Positions 1,671-18,000 of a DNA stretch of 25,787 bases are shown piece after piece. The DNA lies in IMG/VR virus record IMGVR_UViG_3300037882_002501, positions 1 to 25,787 of that record; one strand, written 5' to 3'. The notes below the pieces were generated by a model. That model was not told where the DNA came from. It searched no databases and worked only from the letters and a program-made list of their open reading frames with translations. Each line of letters starts with the position of its first letter. Positions within the stretch are counted from its first letter, which is position 1. Both the position numbers and the translations under genes were made by a program. This DNA is from a virus.

Positions 1671-2044
1671 CGAAGACGGGGGACGCATTGCCAGAGGGCT
1701 GCACATGGTCAAGTTCGCCCGCTGATTTTTGGGCACTAAAGTATTTCCCTGACATTTTGAAGTTTTTCAAGCTGTATGACCTCGACACCTGGGATTGGAA
1801 TACCTTTGCAAAGCGTTTTTGTGGGGGTGAGGTGTCGTGGGAGACGCACACTGTCTATATTCGGTATCAAGATGACGGGCAAATCTATGAGGCTCCGGTT
1901 AAGGTTCTCGGTTCCATTTTTGCTGCCCCTTCTGGGTTTTCTAACAGGGTGCATTACCTTTATGTGGTGATTGATACCCCTCTCCCCTTTTTTAGGTTGC
2001 TTCTGCCTATGAAAGATATTCTCGCTGTTGGGGTGTATGACTGA
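1667..2044 (+). CDS. Unknown protein, second of two tandem paralogs
   Basis: This 125-residue protein starts at GTG 1667, which overlaps the previous stop (GTGA). GAGG at 1659-1662 can serve as ribosome binding site. It is the diverged sister of the gene at 1320, with the same N-terminal LP.G..WS.....A motif and the same C-terminal LLP..D.LA.GV motif. It has about 15 extra residues near DILKFFKLYDLDTWDWNTFAKRF, rich in Phe, Trp and Asp. The divergence shows that the duplication is old. The gene ends 8 bases after the start of the next one. Function unknown. Confidence 0.75.
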   Translation: MTKTGDALPEGCTWSSSPADFWALKYFPDILKFFKLYDLDTWDWNTFAKRFCGGEVSWETHTVYIRYQDDGQIYEAPVKVLGSIFAAPSGFSNRVHYLYVVIDTPLPFFRLLLPMKDILAVGVYD

Positions 2045-2441
2045 AACCCCGTCAGCATTCACCCGATCGATGGCTGAGTTAGACCGTTGGTACATCGCGC
2101 TGCGCACACCGACCTTTAGGGTCGTGCGCAAGCTGCCGCCCTTGACTGTCAGCCCCGCAGTGCGCAGTGCCAGCGGCAAGCGCAAAGGCCATGCGGTGTA
2201 CTGGACGTTCCCCTGCGGCTTGATCTCTACGGCAATGCTGGCCGATAGTATCCGCCGTGCTCCTGCCCATCACGCGGCCCACTTGGCGGCGCTGCGTGAT
2301 GGGTGCCCAAGCAGCGGGCCACGGGCTTACCCTTATACGCTAACTTTTTCGCGCAAGTGGTCAGAGGGGCGTACACGTACTTTAGACATAATGGAGGCAG
2401 TGGCTTGGTTGGCAGACGATTTAGATGATCGGGGGGCTTGA
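2037..2441 (+). CDS. Unknown basic protein just upstream of the late promoter
   Basis: The frame allows a TTG start at 2028, but ATG 2037 is preferred because it gives the same 8-base overlap with the upstream gene as at 862. This yields 134 residues. No family is recognised. The middle is basic (TFRVVRKLPPL, RSASGKRKGHAVYW), followed by a helical stretch (MLADSIRRAPAHHAAHLAAL) and an acidic C terminus (WLADDLDDRGA). The TGA stop at 2439-2441 lies inside the -35 hexamer of the following promoter. This is the position of the antiterminator gene Q relative to pR' in lambda, and a basic protein would suit nucleic-acid binding, but no sequence likeness to Q is claimed. Confidence 0.7.
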   Translation: MTETPSAFTRSMAELDRWYIALRTPTFRVVRKLPPLTVSPAVRSASGKRKGHAVYWTFPCGLISTAMLADSIRRAPAHHAAHLAALRDGCPSSGPRAYPYTLTFSRKWSEGRTRTLDIMEAVAWLADDLDDRGA

Positions 2442-2466
2442 CATTTGATGGGTGAATCCCTACACT
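2438..2466 (+). promoter_or_regulatory. Sigma-70 type promoter for the structural (late) operon
   Basis: A perfect -35 box TTGACA (2438-2443) is followed by exactly 17 bases and the -10 box TACACT (2461-2466, 4 of 6 consensus bases). It lies in the largest intergenic gap of the window (2442-2527), directly before the terminase genes. Transcription should start near 2473. The -35 box overlaps the stop codon of the upstream gene. Confidence 0.8.
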
Positions 2467-2492
2467 TTTTGATACAGTCCCAACGATTTTGC

Positions 2493-2519
2493 AAAGCCCT
2501 CCTCGCCGGGGGCTTTTTT
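2493..2519 (+). terminator. Intrinsic (rho-independent) terminator between late promoter and terminase
   Basis: AAAGCCC (2493-2499) pairs with GGGCTTT (2510-2516). The stem extends inward by a T-G and a C-G pair, leaving a loop of six bases (2502-2507). Six T's (2514-2519) follow the GC-rich part. It ends both upstream transcription and transcripts from the promoter at 2438, which would be only about 47 bases long. Late expression therefore needs readthrough or antitermination. Confidence 0.85.
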
Positions 2520-2527
2520 GTTGCCCC

Positions 2528-3322
2528 ATGCCAGACCCAACCACCTTCCGAGAAGCGCTCGAAGCGCTGACCACCACACGCCAAAAGCAGTTTGTCCAGT
2601 TCTATTTGGGGCTTATTTGCTCACGCGATGGTGAATACACAACGTTTAATGCGTTGCGGTCGGCGTTGGCTGCTGGGTATTCGGCACGCTCGGCGCACGC
2701 TACCGGGGCTGAGGTCTTGAAAAACCCTGGAATCAAGCTCGCTATCTCATTTGGGCTTGGTTGGTTAGCGATGAAAAGCGATGAGGTTGTAGCACGGCTT
2801 GGCGACCAAGCGCGTGCGAGCCTTGAGGACTTCACATCTGTTGAGATTATTGAGCAAAAAGAAGCGCTATTCATAACAGTAGCTAAACGGCGGGCTGACT
2901 TGGTGCTGCTTATTGCTGATGCTGAGGCACAGGAACGCGCTATGGTAGGGTCAAAAGCCGATGCTAATGCTTGGGCAGAGGTGGCAATGGGGTACAAAGC
3001 AGAATTAGCGGGCTTGCCAGAGCATCCAGACCAACAAGTCCTTGTCCTTGGGCGTAAGGCCAATGCAATGCAAGTACGTATTGATCTAATAAAAGCCCAA
3101 CGGCTTGGCAAAATGCACTTAATTAAAAAGCTCAAGCAGACTGATAGCGGGTCACTTGAGATTGAATTGCATAATGCACAGACAGCACTCGAATCAATCG
3201 GCAAGATGCACGGGCTGTACACCGACAGGGTACAGCACTCCGGCGAGGTAACTACGAAGCACTGGGTCTTTGGCCCAGCCAATCCGTTTAACGCCCAAGA
3301 AGTGGATGATGATACGGTCTAA
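2528..3322 (+). CDS. terS: Terminase small subunit (Terminase_2 type)
   Basis: The small terminase recognises phage DNA and regulates the large subunit during packaging. Counting from ATG 2528 (264 residues), residues 15-27 (LTTTRQKQFVQFY), 41-53 (NALRSALAAGYS) and 58-73 (ATGAEVLKNPGIKLAI) form the helix-turn-helix region typical of this family. The C terminus has the usual ending pattern, ALESIGKMHGLYTDR. Between these lies a helical segment rich in Ala, Glu and Lys that makes the protein longer than the roughly 150-180 residues usual for the family. An in-frame TTG at 2489 would place the terminator inside the coding region, so ATG 2528 is preferred, although no good ribosome binding site precedes it. 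It is the first gene of the late operon and overlaps terL. Confidence 0.87.
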   Translation: MPDPTTFREALEALTTTRQKQFVQFYLGLICSRDGEYTTFNALRSALAAGYSARSAHATGAEVLKNPGIKLAISFGLGWLAMKSDEVVARLGDQARASLEDFTSVEIIEQKEALFITVAKRRADLVLLIADAEAQERAMVGSKADANAWAEVAMGYKAELAGLPEHPDQQVLVLGRKANAMQVRIDLIKAQRLGKMHLIKKLKQTDSGSLEIELHNAQTALESIGKMHGLYTDRVQHSGEVTTKHWVFGPANPFNAQEVDDDTV

Positions 3323-4685
3323 CGTCGCGCCCCTCACGTTACCGCGTGGGCCAGTGCAGCAAACCTACCAAGATTTCGTCACTGACAAGCAGCATCTTGA
3401 ACTGATGTGGGTTGGTGGCGTAGGCTGTGGCAAGAGCGACGCGCTGGTTACTAGGGCTGGGCTGCTGGCTGGTGCGCACCCTGGCCTGCGCAGTGTGATA
3501 GCGCGTAGCGATAGCGTCAAACTTGCCAGCACAACACTGCCAAAGTTCTTAGAGAAATGGAATGATGGCGTAAGTGGCAAGTTTCACCAACGCCATGGCA
3601 CGTATAAACTGACAGCTTTTGTATGGACAAATGGGCACATCACCTATTTCATCGGCCTAGGTGACACTCAGGCAAAAGAGCGCCTCAAATCCATGGAAGT
3701 GGTCTTCATCGGTATGGATGAGGCCAACGAGATAGACGAAGAAACATGGAAAATGGCACTCGCCAGGCTTAGGCAGCAGCGCGATGATGGCGGGCCGGTG
3801 CTGTATTCACTGTTCGGCGTGGCGAATTTTGAGGGGCGCAACTGGATTTATAAACGCTTTAAGGCTGATGAGACTAATAACTACAGTGTTAACCGTCGGT
3901 TGTTCGAGGCAAGCACTACCGATAACCACAGCCTGCCTATTGATTATATTAAGAATATCAGCAATGACCCGCTTTGGAAGCGCAAGTATGTTGATGGCTC
4001 ATGGGAGAGCAGCACCGGTCTAGTGTTCCCTGAGTTTAGCGAAACCAAACATATTCGACCAACACAAAATATACTGCAAGAAACCCCAGTAACCTACGTT
4101 GTTGCCATTGACCACGGGCTGAAAAGCCCAACGGCTGCGACGCTGTGGGGTATTGATGGCGCTGGTCGGTGGTATGGCATTCGTGAATACTATGAATCCC
4201 TGTTATCGAGCCATCAAAACGCCGAGAACATTAGGCTGTGGGCCAATGATGTGCGGGTATCGGTGTGGGTGATTGACCCTAGCACCTTTAACGAAGACCC
4301 TCGTCAACCAGGCCAATCTATTGCAATGGACTACCAGGTTAAAGGCATTCCGGTGGTACGTGGCAACAACAGCCTGAGCGTAGGCATCGCCCGACTGCGT
4401 TGGATGCTACAAACCCCTGGCATGTTTGCTGTAAACCCTAGCATGACCAACTTCATCCGCGAGATACAGACTTGGAGCTGGAAAGATAACGCTGCTGGCA
4501 AGGACAAGCCGCAAGACGGCGGTGACCACGCGCTTGATACTGCAAGGTATGCCGTGATGGGGATACCTTTGGGCTTCAAAGCGGCGCTCTCGCCAGTAGA
4601 AGCGTTTAACTCTCCCTTTGAATGGCCTAGTGATGATGATGATGACAGGCCAGCGCGTGCGCGCAAGACACGAGGGGGCTACTGA
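3306..4685 (+). CDS. terL: Terminase large subunit
   Basis: This is the packaging motor ATPase and genome-cutting nuclease. The frame extends upstream to a TTG at 3270, but ATG 3306 (459 residues) has a weak AAGAAG ahead of it and gives a short overlap with terS; ATG 3309 is equally possible. Walker A is GGVGCGKS (residues 37-44, Lys43). Walker B is VVFIGMDE with Asp138 and catalytic Glu139. The RNase H-like nuclease part shows VVAIDHG (Asp269), VWVIDPS (Asp324) and GGDHALDTARY (Asp407, Asp411), so all expected metal-binding acids appear present. An acidic run of Asp near the C terminus (SDDDDDRP) is followed by a basic tail. The stop overlaps the portal start. Confidence 0.96.
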   Translation: MMIRSNVAPLTLPRGPVQQTYQDFVTDKQHLELMWVGGVGCGKSDALVTRAGLLAGAHPGLRSVIARSDSVKLASTTLPKFLEKWNDGVSGKFHQRHGTYKLTAFVWTNGHITYFIGLGDTQAKERLKSMEVVFIGMDEANEIDEETWKMALARLRQQRDDGGPVLYSLFGVANFEGRNWIYKRFKADETNNYSVNRRLFEASTTDNHSLPIDYIKNISNDPLWKRKYVDGSWESSTGLVFPEFSETKHIRPTQNILQETPVTYVVAIDHGLKSPTAATLWGIDGAGRWYGIREYYESLLSSHQNAENIRLWANDVRVSVWVIDPSTFNEDPRQPGQSIAMDYQVKGIPVVRGNNSLSVGIARLRWMLQTPGMFAVNPSMTNFIREIQTWSWKDNAAGKDKPQDGGDHALDTARYAVMGIPLGFKAALSPVEAFNSPFEWPSDDDDDRPARARKTRGGY

Positions 4686-6499
4686 TGATGATGCAAGACG
4701 AGTTTGGCTTGCTTGATGGCCTTGGAATGGATGATGAGCTAGGCTACATGCCTGGCTTTTTTGATTGGCAGCGTGACCGGCAAGAAGTTGAGGGCTTATT
4801 GCAGATAGAGCTACAGTCAGCGATTACTGGTATGGCTGAACATGTAACAAAGCTGGCAATATGGCGCAGGGCATATGATTTAAAGCCCGATCCAGAGCGT
4901 GAACCGCCATTCCCAGGTGCAGCCAACTACGTAAAACCTATGACGCGCTCGAAGATTGACGGTGCGGCTGCCTATTTGGGCGTGGCACTCGACGAAGACC
5001 CGTTCTTTACTGTCCGCGCACGTACAGCGCAGCTTGAGCCGGTGCGGGCAGCGTTAGAAGAGTATATGGATTTGCGCATGGATCACCTGGAAACCGGCAT
5101 GGGCCAGGGGATTCGCACGTTTGTACACCAGTCGGTGCGGGAAAGTCTGGTGGTTGGTGTGTGCGTGGCGCGGTGTATTTGGGAAGAGGTGGTAGGAGCG
5201 CGTGGCCAGCGCGTGCGGGGGCGCAACAAACTTGATCTGGTGCCCCTAGAAGACTTTTTGGTCTCGCCCGTCACGGTCACGCGGCTTGAGGATGCTTTTA
5301 TGGTGGCCCATCGGTTCTGGTTGCCCTATTGGCGACTCGACCAAATGGCTGACAGTGGGGTACTGAACGCCGATTATGTAGAGAAACTGCGCGGCCAAGG
5401 TGATGAGGGCGGGCCAAACCAAACTTATAACGAAGACCAAGGGCATCATGGGTATAACAGCGGTAGTCCTGAGAGCCGCATGGTTGAGATTTACGAGTGT
5501 TGGGTACAGTGGCGGGGGCAGATGTGGCGGTTCTGGTTTCATAAGGGCAGCAACTGCTTGCTTCGGGCCGAACCAAACCAGTACAACCACGGGCGTGCCC
5601 CGTTTGCATTGATTCGCCATGACCCTAAGCCAAACTATTTGTTTGGCAGTTCCTTTAGTGAATTGCTTGAACAGACACAGATCGAATTGGATACGCTCAC
5701 AAACCAGCGCATTGATACCAACAGCTATGCCATTAGTCCACTGGTTGGTGTGCGTCCTGGCTCGCTGATGGCCAGGTGGTTGCGCAAGAATGCGATCACA
5801 CCGGGGGCTGTGGTTGAGGGTGATCCGAATGACTTCTTTCAAATACAAATAGCACCAGCCAGCCAGGCATCTATGCAAGATGAGCAAGTTTTGTGGAACA
5901 TGGCTGATAAAACAACGCTGCCAGACATAGCCATGTCGCAACCACTAACAAAACGCGACCCAACAGCCACAGAAGTGAACCGCGATCAAAGCTTTGTCCA
6001 AGCGAAAAGCGCCAATTGGTTGCGGAATTTGCATGGTGGCTTGCGTGATCTGGCGTGGCTGATGTATTACAACCTGCACCAGTATGAAGTCTCGCAAAGC
6101 AGCGTTCAAGTCAATGTAGAAACCCAAATGGGGCCAATGCCAATGCCAATGGCAGGGCTGACCATACAGACTGGCGACAGCAGTAAAGACATTATTGCCA
6201 GTGAGATGTTTCTCGACGGCATTGATATTGAGGTAAACGGGCGTGAAACGCAAACGGCCAAGGCCGAACGCGCTACGTTGGCTGGGATGCTCTTGCAGCA
6301 GGTGGTGCCAGCGATTTTACAGGGCACCACTAAAAACCCACAGGTGTGGACAGTGCTAAAGATGCTATTGGATGCCAACAACGTTAAAAATTGGCGTGAG
6401 ATTTTGGGCGATAAACCGACTGAGGAACAGATGCAGGCCGAGCAAATGATGGCACAGATGCAACAGGGCGGGCCTGCCCCACCCGGAGGCATGGCATGA
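4685..6499 (+). CDS. Portal protein
   Basis: The portal forms the dodecameric ring at one capsid vertex, through which DNA enters and leaves. The 604-residue product has hallmarks of podovirus-type portals. These include PPFPGAANYVKPMTRSKID at about residues 74-92, followed by LDEDPFFTV, a long helical region that includes a QSVRESLVVGVC segment, and a later NQRIDTNSYAISPLVGV stretch. The length suits this class. The C terminus is rich in Met and Gln and probably disordered. Three ATG codons lie in a row at 4685, 4688 and 4691; GAGGGGG at 4672-4678 suits any of them. It lies directly after terL and overlaps its stop, the classic order. Confidence 0.92.
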   Translation: MMMQDEFGLLDGLGMDDELGYMPGFFDWQRDRQEVEGLLQIELQSAITGMAEHVTKLAIWRRAYDLKPDPEREPPFPGAANYVKPMTRSKIDGAAAYLGVALDEDPFFTVRARTAQLEPVRAALEEYMDLRMDHLETGMGQGIRTFVHQSVRESLVVGVCVARCIWEEVVGARGQRVRGRNKLDLVPLEDFLVSPVTVTRLEDAFMVAHRFWLPYWRLDQMADSGVLNADYVEKLRGQGDEGGPNQTYNEDQGHHGYNSGSPESRMVEIYECWVQWRGQMWRFWFHKGSNCLLRAEPNQYNHGRAPFALIRHDPKPNYLFGSSFSELLEQTQIELDTLTNQRIDTNSYAISPLVGVRPGSLMARWLRKNAITPGAVVEGDPNDFFQIQIAPASQASMQDEQVLWNMADKTTLPDIAMSQPLTKRDPTATEVNRDQSFVQAKSANWLRNLHGGLRDLAWLMYYNLHQYEVSQSSVQVNVETQMGPMPMPMAGLTIQTGDSSKDIIASEMFLDGIDIEVNGRETQTAKAERATLAGMLLQQVVPAILQGTTKNPQVWTVLKMLLDANNVKNWREILGDKPTEEQMQAEQMMAQMQQGGPAPPGGMA

Positions 6500-15051: not shown

Positions 15052-18000
15052 ATGGCGACGAATTTCTTTACAGGATTAAGCAAGGGCTTTGCTGAAACCG
15101 CTAAAAGCGTCGGCCCACAAATGGCCAGCGTTATTTTGCAAAAGCAGCAAATGGCTGCGCAACAAAAAGCGCAAGAGGAAGCAAACGCACGACAAGAGCG
15201 CTTTGCACAAGCACAAGCTGTGCAAGGAACAATTCAAAGCCAGATTGATGACCTAACCAAACAGTTTAACGTGCTCGCAAAAACAGATACAGCACTAGCT
15301 AATCAGGTACGCGGGCGCATTACTAAACTCGCGGCATTGAAAGTTATTGCTACGAGCAACCCTGAGCGGGCACAGCAGTTACATGATGAGTTGGCAGTGG
15401 CAGACTTCACTGCTGGCGATGAGCGCACGGCTGGCCCTGGGGCTGGCAATGCACTGAATAACAACATTGGCCAACAAACGAACATTACCCCCGATCAAAT
15501 GGGGCCTTTTGTGCCTGGCCAAGAGCCAGCGCCAATGCCAGTGCCGGAACCCCAGCAAATTGGCACACCAGTACGCACCTATGACCCGGCAACAGTGTTA
15601 GGGATGGCACAACGTGCCGAACAGGAAGACGCGCAAACACAGCAGACCAAAGCGGCTTACCGCCAAATTGCTGTGAATGTGATCAATGCCCCTGATAAAT
15701 ACAGCGCTGACAAAGTACAAAAAGCCCGTGAGTTTTTGGAAGGCAAAACAAATGACACCGATTGGGCGGGGATGCGCTCCTCTACGTTTACTGTTGATGA
15801 CCTTAAAGCCGCTTACGCCAATAAAGACTGGCGCTCGGCGCAAGCTGCCTACAGTGCGTTGTCTGCACAGGGCGCAGACCTGGCGGGATTTGACAAAAAA
15901 GTCATTGACACCAACGTTGGCCGCTTAGATCGGCGTGATAACAACGAAGAAACGCTACTTGACCTAGCGGTTAGGCAAAGTACATTTAACCTAGAGCGTG
16001 GGGGCTTTGACCTTGATGCCGATAAAACCAAACTTGGTGTAGCGCTTAAACAGGACAAACAAGCGCAACAAAAATTATTCGGGGATTGGGCCACTGTTGG
16101 TAATGTTGAGGCACTAGAGGCCAGTAAGGCCGACATTACCGCACTGGGGTTTGACTATGGCAGCCTGTTAGCGCGGGCAAAAACCAACAGGGGGGCGCTG
16201 GACGAAGAGCGCAGCAACACGCTAGAGAATCAGGGGCTAGACAATCAGCTCAAAGCAGGGCAGCTTAAACTCAACAACGCGCTCTATCAGCCTACACTCG
16301 ACAGTGCCAACCTAAAAAATGACCTTGACCGCGCTGGATTGGCGCAGGCGGGCATTAACCTAGAGCAATCACGCGAGAATCTGGCGTTTTTTAAGGATAC
16401 TAAAAACGCTAACGTACAACTGCTGAATACTCAACTGTCAGCAGCACAGCAGGAACTGTCAGAAAACAAAGCCCTCTCACCATATCGAGTACAACAACTA
16501 CAAGAAGCAGTCAAAGCATTGGCGCTGGATAACACGCTAAAGGAAAAATATGGCGCGGCTGAACTTGATGCCCGCATTAACAGCATTCTGGCCAGCACTG
16601 GCTATACAAAAGTACAAACTGAGCAAGCACAGCTAGAGTTAAAGTTTGGCCAAGACACTTACAGCAATAGGATTACCCTATCTGCCAATCAAGCGGCACT
16701 CTCTGGTGTGCAGCTAGAAGAGGCTGGTGTCAATCTCGATCAAGCTAAAGCCAGCTTGGCACAGTTTAAAAAGATTGCGCCATTGCAAGCAAAACAGTTG
16801 GAAGCAACCATTGCTAGCATGGAATACAGCTTAGAAAAAGACAAGCAAATCACTCCGTTACAAATCAAAACCTTGCAAGAGCAGGTGGCCGCTCTTGTCC
16901 GAGACAATAAGATTGGCGACTTATTTGCCGAACCTACCGCTAAAGCGCAGCTAGAGCTGCTTTTTGGGTCTGTTGGATTGCAAAAAACCCAGCAAAAAAC
17001 CGCAGACCTAGAGCTAAAGTTTGGAGAGGATACTTACAACAGCCGTGTTACCTTGGTGAGTAACCAAGCGGCACTCTCTGGTGTGCAGCTAGAAGAAGCT
17101 GGTGTCAATCTCGACCAAGCTAAAGCCAACCTAGCGCAGTTTAAGCAGATCGCACCATTGCAAGCAAAACAGTTGGAAGCAACCATTGCTAGCATGGAGT
17201 ATGACCTAGAGAAAAACAAGCAGCTTACTCCATTACAGGTCAAAACCTTGCAAGAGCAGGTGGCTGCCCTTGTCCGAGACAATAAGATCGGTGACTTATT
17301 TGCTGAACCTACCGCTAAAGCGCAGCTAGAAGGGCTGTTGACCTCGGTGGGGTTGCAGAAAACCCAAGCCGCAGTGGCTGCTGCCACTGCACCAGGGCAA
17401 ATTGCTGCGACTGATGCGCAAAATAAGGTTGCCGTAGACACTGCCGAAAGCACTACAAATGCAACCAATGTCAAGAATGATGCTGTCGTAGCGACTACAC
17501 CGTTGCAAATTGCTGCGACCGACGCGCAAAATAAGGGTGTCGTAGATACTGCCCAAGGCATCACAAATGCAACCAATGCGCAAAATGCCACTGTTATTGC
17601 CCAAAGCGAGGCAGCACGTAAGCTGTTGCCGTTTGAGACTGAGAACAAACTGGATGTTTTGCAGCTGCAAAAACGCTTGTTCGCATTGAAAGAGCCAACC
17701 GCGCGGGCTGCCGAACTAAGCGACATTGCGAGCCTGGGCAATGTTGGCCTTACCGCGCTAGATCAGTTGAAAGAGAAGGGCAACATTACCCAAGCTGAGT
17801 ATAACACTGCTGCTCAGGCTGCCAAAAACAATCAAACCATCTTGGACACCAAGGTGGCGCAGGCTGACCAAACCTTGCTCCTGCTGCCGGAGCAAACCCG
17901 TACCCTACTCTCGACCTACGCCCGTACACAATCAGACAATGACCTAGCTGTGCTGACCAACCAAGTGGCAACCGACTTGGTTGGTCTTAAAGGCAGTGTT

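Follow-up and report, generated by a model that had tools for sequence, protein, structure and literature searches.

The window analysed here is an entire IMG/VR virus fragment of 25,787 bases, of which only 2.4 kb lie upstream of the promoter described below. On this early side (upstream of 2441), profile searches found a VRR-nuclease/Holliday-resolvase-like gene (862-1323) and orphan genes. From 2528 onwards, the late side encodes the small and large terminase subunits (TerS and TerL), an SU10-type portal, the major head protein and more virion genes. The 86 bp between the two sides (2442-2527) form the sole gap of more than 12 bp between the main genes listed and, judged by gene content, this gap is the junction from genes of DNA-metabolism type to virion genes. 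The features of the locus are as follows:

2037..2441, + strand: 134-aa orphan gene in the "Q position", with its TGA stop (2439-2441) inside the -35 hexamer
2438..2443, + strand: -35 hexamer TTGACA (sequence match)
2444..2460, + strand: 17-bp spacer TTTGATGGGTGAATCCC, containing GGGTGAATCCC (read from the sequence)
2461..2466, + strand: -10 hexamer TACACT (sequence match)
2472..2474, + strand: predicted transcription start, 6-8 nt past the -10 (promoter geometry)
2473..2478, + strand: -10-like TACAGT, candidate sigma-dependent pause element, 6 nt past the -10 (about +1 to +6)
2493..2516, + strand: intrinsic terminator stem-loop with a 9 bp stem and a 6-nt loop, AAAGCCCTC-CTCGCC-GGGGGCTTT
2514..2522, + strand: terminator T-run TTTTTTGTT, the first three T pairing with AAA
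2528..3322, + strand: TerS, 264 aa, the first late gene (PF03592, E 6e-13; phrog_51, E 3e-20)
3309..4685, + strand: TerL, at the start of the operon behind the terminator, with the portal and further virion genes
4685-6499, + strand: portal (profile searches)

A terminase gene had been expected right behind the terminator in the original prediction, and the family matches of the ORF starting at ATG 2528 bear this out. No Shine-Dalgarno sequence was found at the normal distance from this ATG. A search of GTDB genomes recovered TerS relatives in Herpetosiphon genomes and in Chloroflexota MAGs; these relatives hint at a Chloroflexota-type host group for the phage and are not proof of it. Elsewhere in the window, a 21/42 bp tandem repeat occupies the contig end (1-101), two orphan genes that adjoin each other, at 1320-1670 and 1667-2044, are paralogous (30% identity across 74 aa, E 6e-8), and a 1646-aa ORF contains a 375-bp tandem repeat in 1.8 copies (16690-17366).

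The promoter TTGACA-17-TACACT agrees with the consensus at 10 of 12 positions and is among the two best + strand matches in the window. About one match this good is expected per strand by chance, so that the promoter match alone proves nothing. The terminator (hairpin and T-run, 2493-2522) has a predicted energy of about -13 kcal/mol, and 0.17 terminators this good are expected per strand; its stem begins 26 nt past the -10. Among 400 whole-window dinucleotide shuffles, 7 contained a promoter with a terminator behind it within this range, and both elements in order were never recovered in 20,000 shuffles of the 90-bp region itself. The combination of promoter (2438-2466) and terminator, which had first been noticed from the letters alone, is thus confirmed and is not due to chance. 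The case is strengthened further by its lying in the one gap that separates early-type genes from virion genes.

The overall fold energy of the leader RNA was not unusual (z -0.3 and -1.2), and the signal in the leader is the specific hairpin with its T-run, not the overall fold energy. An Rfam search of the region gave no family at the curated cut-off. The match to asX2 on the minus strand scored 25 bits against a cut-off of 70, extended over just the terminator and the beginning of TerS, and was rejected. A second strong terminator-like hairpin, followed by TTTTTT, lies in the first codons of the portal ORF (4736..4765, + strand). If functional, it would need processive readthrough; it may also be a chance occurrence in coding sequence.

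The predicted leader is about 47 nt long, the same length as had been proposed before, and the TerS ATG lies 8 nt past the six-T run. No promoter fits into these 8 nt, and late transcripts starting at this promoter or upstream must therefore cross the terminator. Directly at the predicted start site we noticed the -10-like TACAGT; an element of this type is expected by chance at 3% of random window places and in 13% of shuffled leaders. In known systems, a -10-like element at +1 to +6 causes a sigma-dependent pause near +16/+17. The hairpin begins at +21, so that a factor could load onto a polymerase paused at about +16 before any base of the hairpin is made. Since the hairpin starts past the pause and late transcripts must cross the terminator, factor-dependent antitermination is favoured.

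Host RNA polymerase would start at about 2473 and, still containing sigma, would pause at about +16 on the -10-like element. Without a phage factor, the RNA would end at about +47. A factor bound at the promoter spacer or close to it would load onto the paused polymerase and keep the hairpin from forming, and the loaded polymerase would continue into the terminase, portal and other virion genes. By analogy with Q and AlpA, a binding element of the QBE/ABE type would lie in the 17-bp spacer (2444..2460). Repeats in the spacer were considered as such a binding site and dropped, as they are short and expected by chance. From this arrangement we infer that the promoter is active, that the polymerase pauses, that the factor exists and that readthrough is processive.

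Several studied systems follow this scheme. For Q proteins to act, the initially transcribed region has to include a -10-like sequence, and a QBE has to lie between the -35 and -10 (PMC6606751); the three Q families have no sequence similarity and occupy equivalent genome positions (PMC7171158). AlpA is unrelated to Q in sequence and works by the same scheme, with a -10-like element at -1 to +5 at alpB (PMC7969949, PMC9371919); at the AlpA-controlled PA0807, the terminator begins 26 bp past the start site (PMC7969949). In the Caulobacter gene transfer agent (GTA), the GafY/GafZ antiterminator is thought to load via an element between the -35 and -10 (PMC11150451).

The Q21-type (PF06530) cassettes of Pseudomonas-type phages (e.g. 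L039), a known set that comes largely from one phage group, resemble the window in the TGA within the -35, in the TTGACA-17-TAnnnT promoter and in the late genes behind it. Their -10-like element lies 5-6 nt past the -10 (6 nt in the window) and their stem 28-29 nt past it (26 nt in the window). However, the upstream gene of the window is not PF06530 and the QBE sequence is not shared; moreover, the Q21-type cassettes lead into holin/lysin genes, whereas that of the window leads directly into the terminase. AlpA of Pseudomonas aeruginosa (alpB and PA0807) is similar in its near terminator and would be so in its factor element in the spacer and its -10-like pause element, if the candidate elements of the window act as proposed; it acts at a cellular locus linked to lysis and virulence, and the searches used found no AlpA relative in the window. 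The lambda pR'-tR' region with Q (PF03589) has the same order of elements in the same place before the late genes. Its leader of 194 nt is, however, much longer than the roughly 47 nt of the window, in which no lambda Q relative was found. The Caulobacter GTA promoter drives a virion operon, as the predicted promoter of the window would; it differs in needing IHF and GafY, in its 229-nt leader and in having the terminator behind the first gene.

For a broader comparison by layout, IMG/VR was scanned with the pattern TTGACA-17-TAnnnT-N10-40-AAAGCCC-hairpin-GGGCTTTTT, which used the window's own terminator letters and left the -10-to-stem gap free between 10 and 40. There were at least 120 matches, 120 of which are listed. 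The gap was 28 or 29 in 82 of the 120 matches listed, and a PF06530-type (Q21-type) gene was present within 2.5 kb upstream in 80 of the 120. The counts for these listed Q cassettes are not independent, because the pattern was built on the window's terminator letters and the matches come mainly from one related Pseudomonas-type phage group: the -10-to-stem spacing is 28-29 nt in 80/80 (window 26), the TGA stop of an upstream gene lies inside TTGACA in 47/80, as for the 134-aa gene of the window, and a TAnnnT element (TACTTT) is found 5-6 nt past the -10 in 61 of the 63 distinct cassettes (window TACAGT, at 6). In those cassettes with the TGA/TTGACA overlap that were examined, the overlapping gene was Q.

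The original prediction had compared the locus to a Q switch and had suggested that the short leader might point to a different mechanism. The order of promoter, leader, terminator and late genes stood up; the argument from the leader did not. A leader of about 47 nt does not speak against a Q-type mechanism, since the listed Q cassettes have nearly the same spacing and the terminator of PA0807 lies at 26 bp. It would be wrong to assume that all Q cassettes have 28-nt leaders, as the spacing is 63 nt in Marinobacter AS1, and the same scan found no cassette in six other named Q phages. The compact leader is common and not universal, because phages with a more distant Q show longer leaders or no cassette.

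Spacings of 25-27 nt also occur together with other or more distant upstream genes (L072, L156, L047, L110, L137 and L144). Two cassettes have a spacing of 26 nt (L072 10765-11640 and L156 4500-4600); in L072, the upstream gene has a weak DUF6456 match below the cut-off and an HNH-like ORF lies downstream. Five matches have the TGA of an unknown protein inside the TTGACA of the cassette (L045 2604-3296, L047 8407-8928, L110 2791-3486, L137 1529-2413 and L138 7521-8054). The proteins of L110 and L137 belong to phrog_17923, and these unknown proteins may represent unrecognised Q-like families. In another three records (L055 3780-5716, L067 212-2130 and L103 917-2860), the cassette is followed by a portal-like ORF of roughly 610 aa whose ATG lies 5-7 nt past the T-run. 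These three cassettes sit downstream of a TerL gene (TerL was tested in L055). A terminator at the very start of a virion gene is thus not unique to the window.

We also looked for relatives by descent. No close relatives were found among viral contigs searched with TerL, TerS, portal, major capsid protein, VRR nuclease and the 134-aa gene, nor among GTDB genomes (TerS) or 400 Chloroflexota genomes (portal or 134-aa gene). The relatives recovered were distant and by TerS or TerL only; the same searches gave none for the portal. In three of them (L027, L029 and L031), the terminases are about 35-45% identical to those of the window, and promoter-terminator cassettes are present in all three, against 0.5 such cassettes per strand in shuffles of the set of TerS relatives. 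In most of the other TerS relatives, the TerS gene is not accompanied by such a cassette. As in the window, a promoter, a short leader and a strong terminator stand before TerS (L031), or the portal ATG stands at the T-run (L027). They differ from the window in their promoter spacers, and the leaders of L027 and L031 are longer.

The L027 cassette (6006-6121) separates TerL from portal, and its T-run is directly followed by the portal ATG (MTIPD...); the L029 cassette lies about 840 bp before TerS. L031 has two cassettes, at 2796-2890 and 3841-3965. One consists of TTGACA-17-TAGCAT and a strong terminator, with TerS 20 nt behind; the other, about 1 kb upstream of it, consists of TTGACT-17-TAGGAT and a terminator. 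A clean -10-like element is missing from the L031 cassette. The sequence TTCGTGnTAGnAT occurs around the -10 of both L031 promoters and has no other exact copy in the 31.5-kb record, which fits the expectation of one regulator for two promoters. From these shared letters, antitermination by one regulator at two promoters is possible in L031. A 290-aa ParB/HTH-like gene stops 17 bp before the cassette at 2796-2890 in this record.

Which protein might act as the factor in the window? The stop codon of the 134-aa gene (2037-2441) overlaps the TTGACA, a feature absent from the original prediction. Its protein had no match in Pfam, PHROGs, NCBIfam, PDB, phage records or viral contigs, and weak matches in 6 of 400 Chloroflexota genomes (E about 1e-3 each) were discarded as noise. 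The predicted structure was unusable (pLDDT 41). Family searches of the upstream genes within the 2.4 kb gave no match to PF06530, PF03589, PF06323 or p7; since the window begins only 2.4 kb upstream, a Q gene could lie further upstream. As for an AlpA relative, the 134-aa orphan matches no PDB chain and no entry of the family libraries; the AlpA complexes are solved structures and hence were within the PDB comparison (PMC9371919). By its position, the 134-aa gene is the best candidate for the factor, and we propose it tentatively, as neither its sequence nor its structure model points to this function. The further idea that it founds an antiterminator family of Chloroflexota-related phages, unrelated to known Q and AlpA and with its own stop in the -35 that it controls, is speculative and somewhat doubtful.

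The analysis establishes that the elements are present, how they are spaced and placed, that they are not random and that they match Q cassettes. By analogy with these systems, the phage probably makes a protein that lets RNA polymerase read through the terminator. In our interpretation, the cassette combines a tailed-phage late promoter with its control terminator and is subject to factor-dependent antitermination of the Q or AlpA type; we assign this reading a probability of roughly 0.6.

The main rival is that the hairpin mainly ends or dampens transcription of the upstream operon, with a weak or unused promoter and late genes fed by leaky readthrough. The upstream genes do immediately precede the terminator, and the 10/12 promoter match could be the one expected per strand by chance. 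However, the only gap is precisely where TTGACA-17-TAnnnT is found, with 26 nt between it and the stem, much as in Q cassettes, and it seems implausible that all virion genes depend on leakage past a good terminator. We therefore regard this rival as unlikely.

Attenuation by RNA without a loading factor appears quite improbable. GGGGGGCUU (2431-2439) would pair with AAGCCCUCC (2494-2502) as an antiterminator before the 3' arm of the terminator is made, and GGGGC (2509-2513) would then pair with GCCCC (2523-2527) just before the ATG. Upstream transcripts would thus read through; ribosomes halting at 2441 would cover the first arm, and RNA from the local promoter, made without that arm, would terminate. 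The antiterminator fold was indeed predicted for RNA 2400-2505, 2400-2512 and again 2400-2527, and the terminator fold for 2425-2520. However, equal pairing was seen in 12% of shuffled upstream sequences and in 7% of random 100-nt window stretches and is thus not significant, and the promoter would be left pointless for the late genes.

It is just as improbable that a p7-like or other small protein binds the polymerase without an element in the promoter, as p7 of XP10 does. Small orphan genes are present upstream and no Q family was found; none of these orphans has a family match, although p7 is small and a relative could have escaped the searches or be encoded beyond the window. Against this idea, the spacing of promoter, pause-like element and terminator is that of systems with a loading element. 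Finally, small-RNA genes likewise consist of a promoter plus a terminator, but an RNA of about 47 nt acting elsewhere is very improbable, as Rfam yielded only the weak asX2 match and terminase transcription would be left without explanation.

Antitermination by a loaded factor remains our preferred reading, and the locus is a real and well-placed regulatory cassette; the kind of switch is known, and the phage lineage that carries it is unusual. What had been a vague succession of promoter and terminator can now be addressed with a defined 90-bp reporter test and one named candidate gene. Q21, lambda Q and AlpA have no sequence in common and serve the same function at promoters of nearly identical layout. 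If an orphan gene does so in the same place, far from the Proteobacteria that have been studied, it would be the layout and not the protein that recurs, and new antiterminator families could then be sought by means of this layout.
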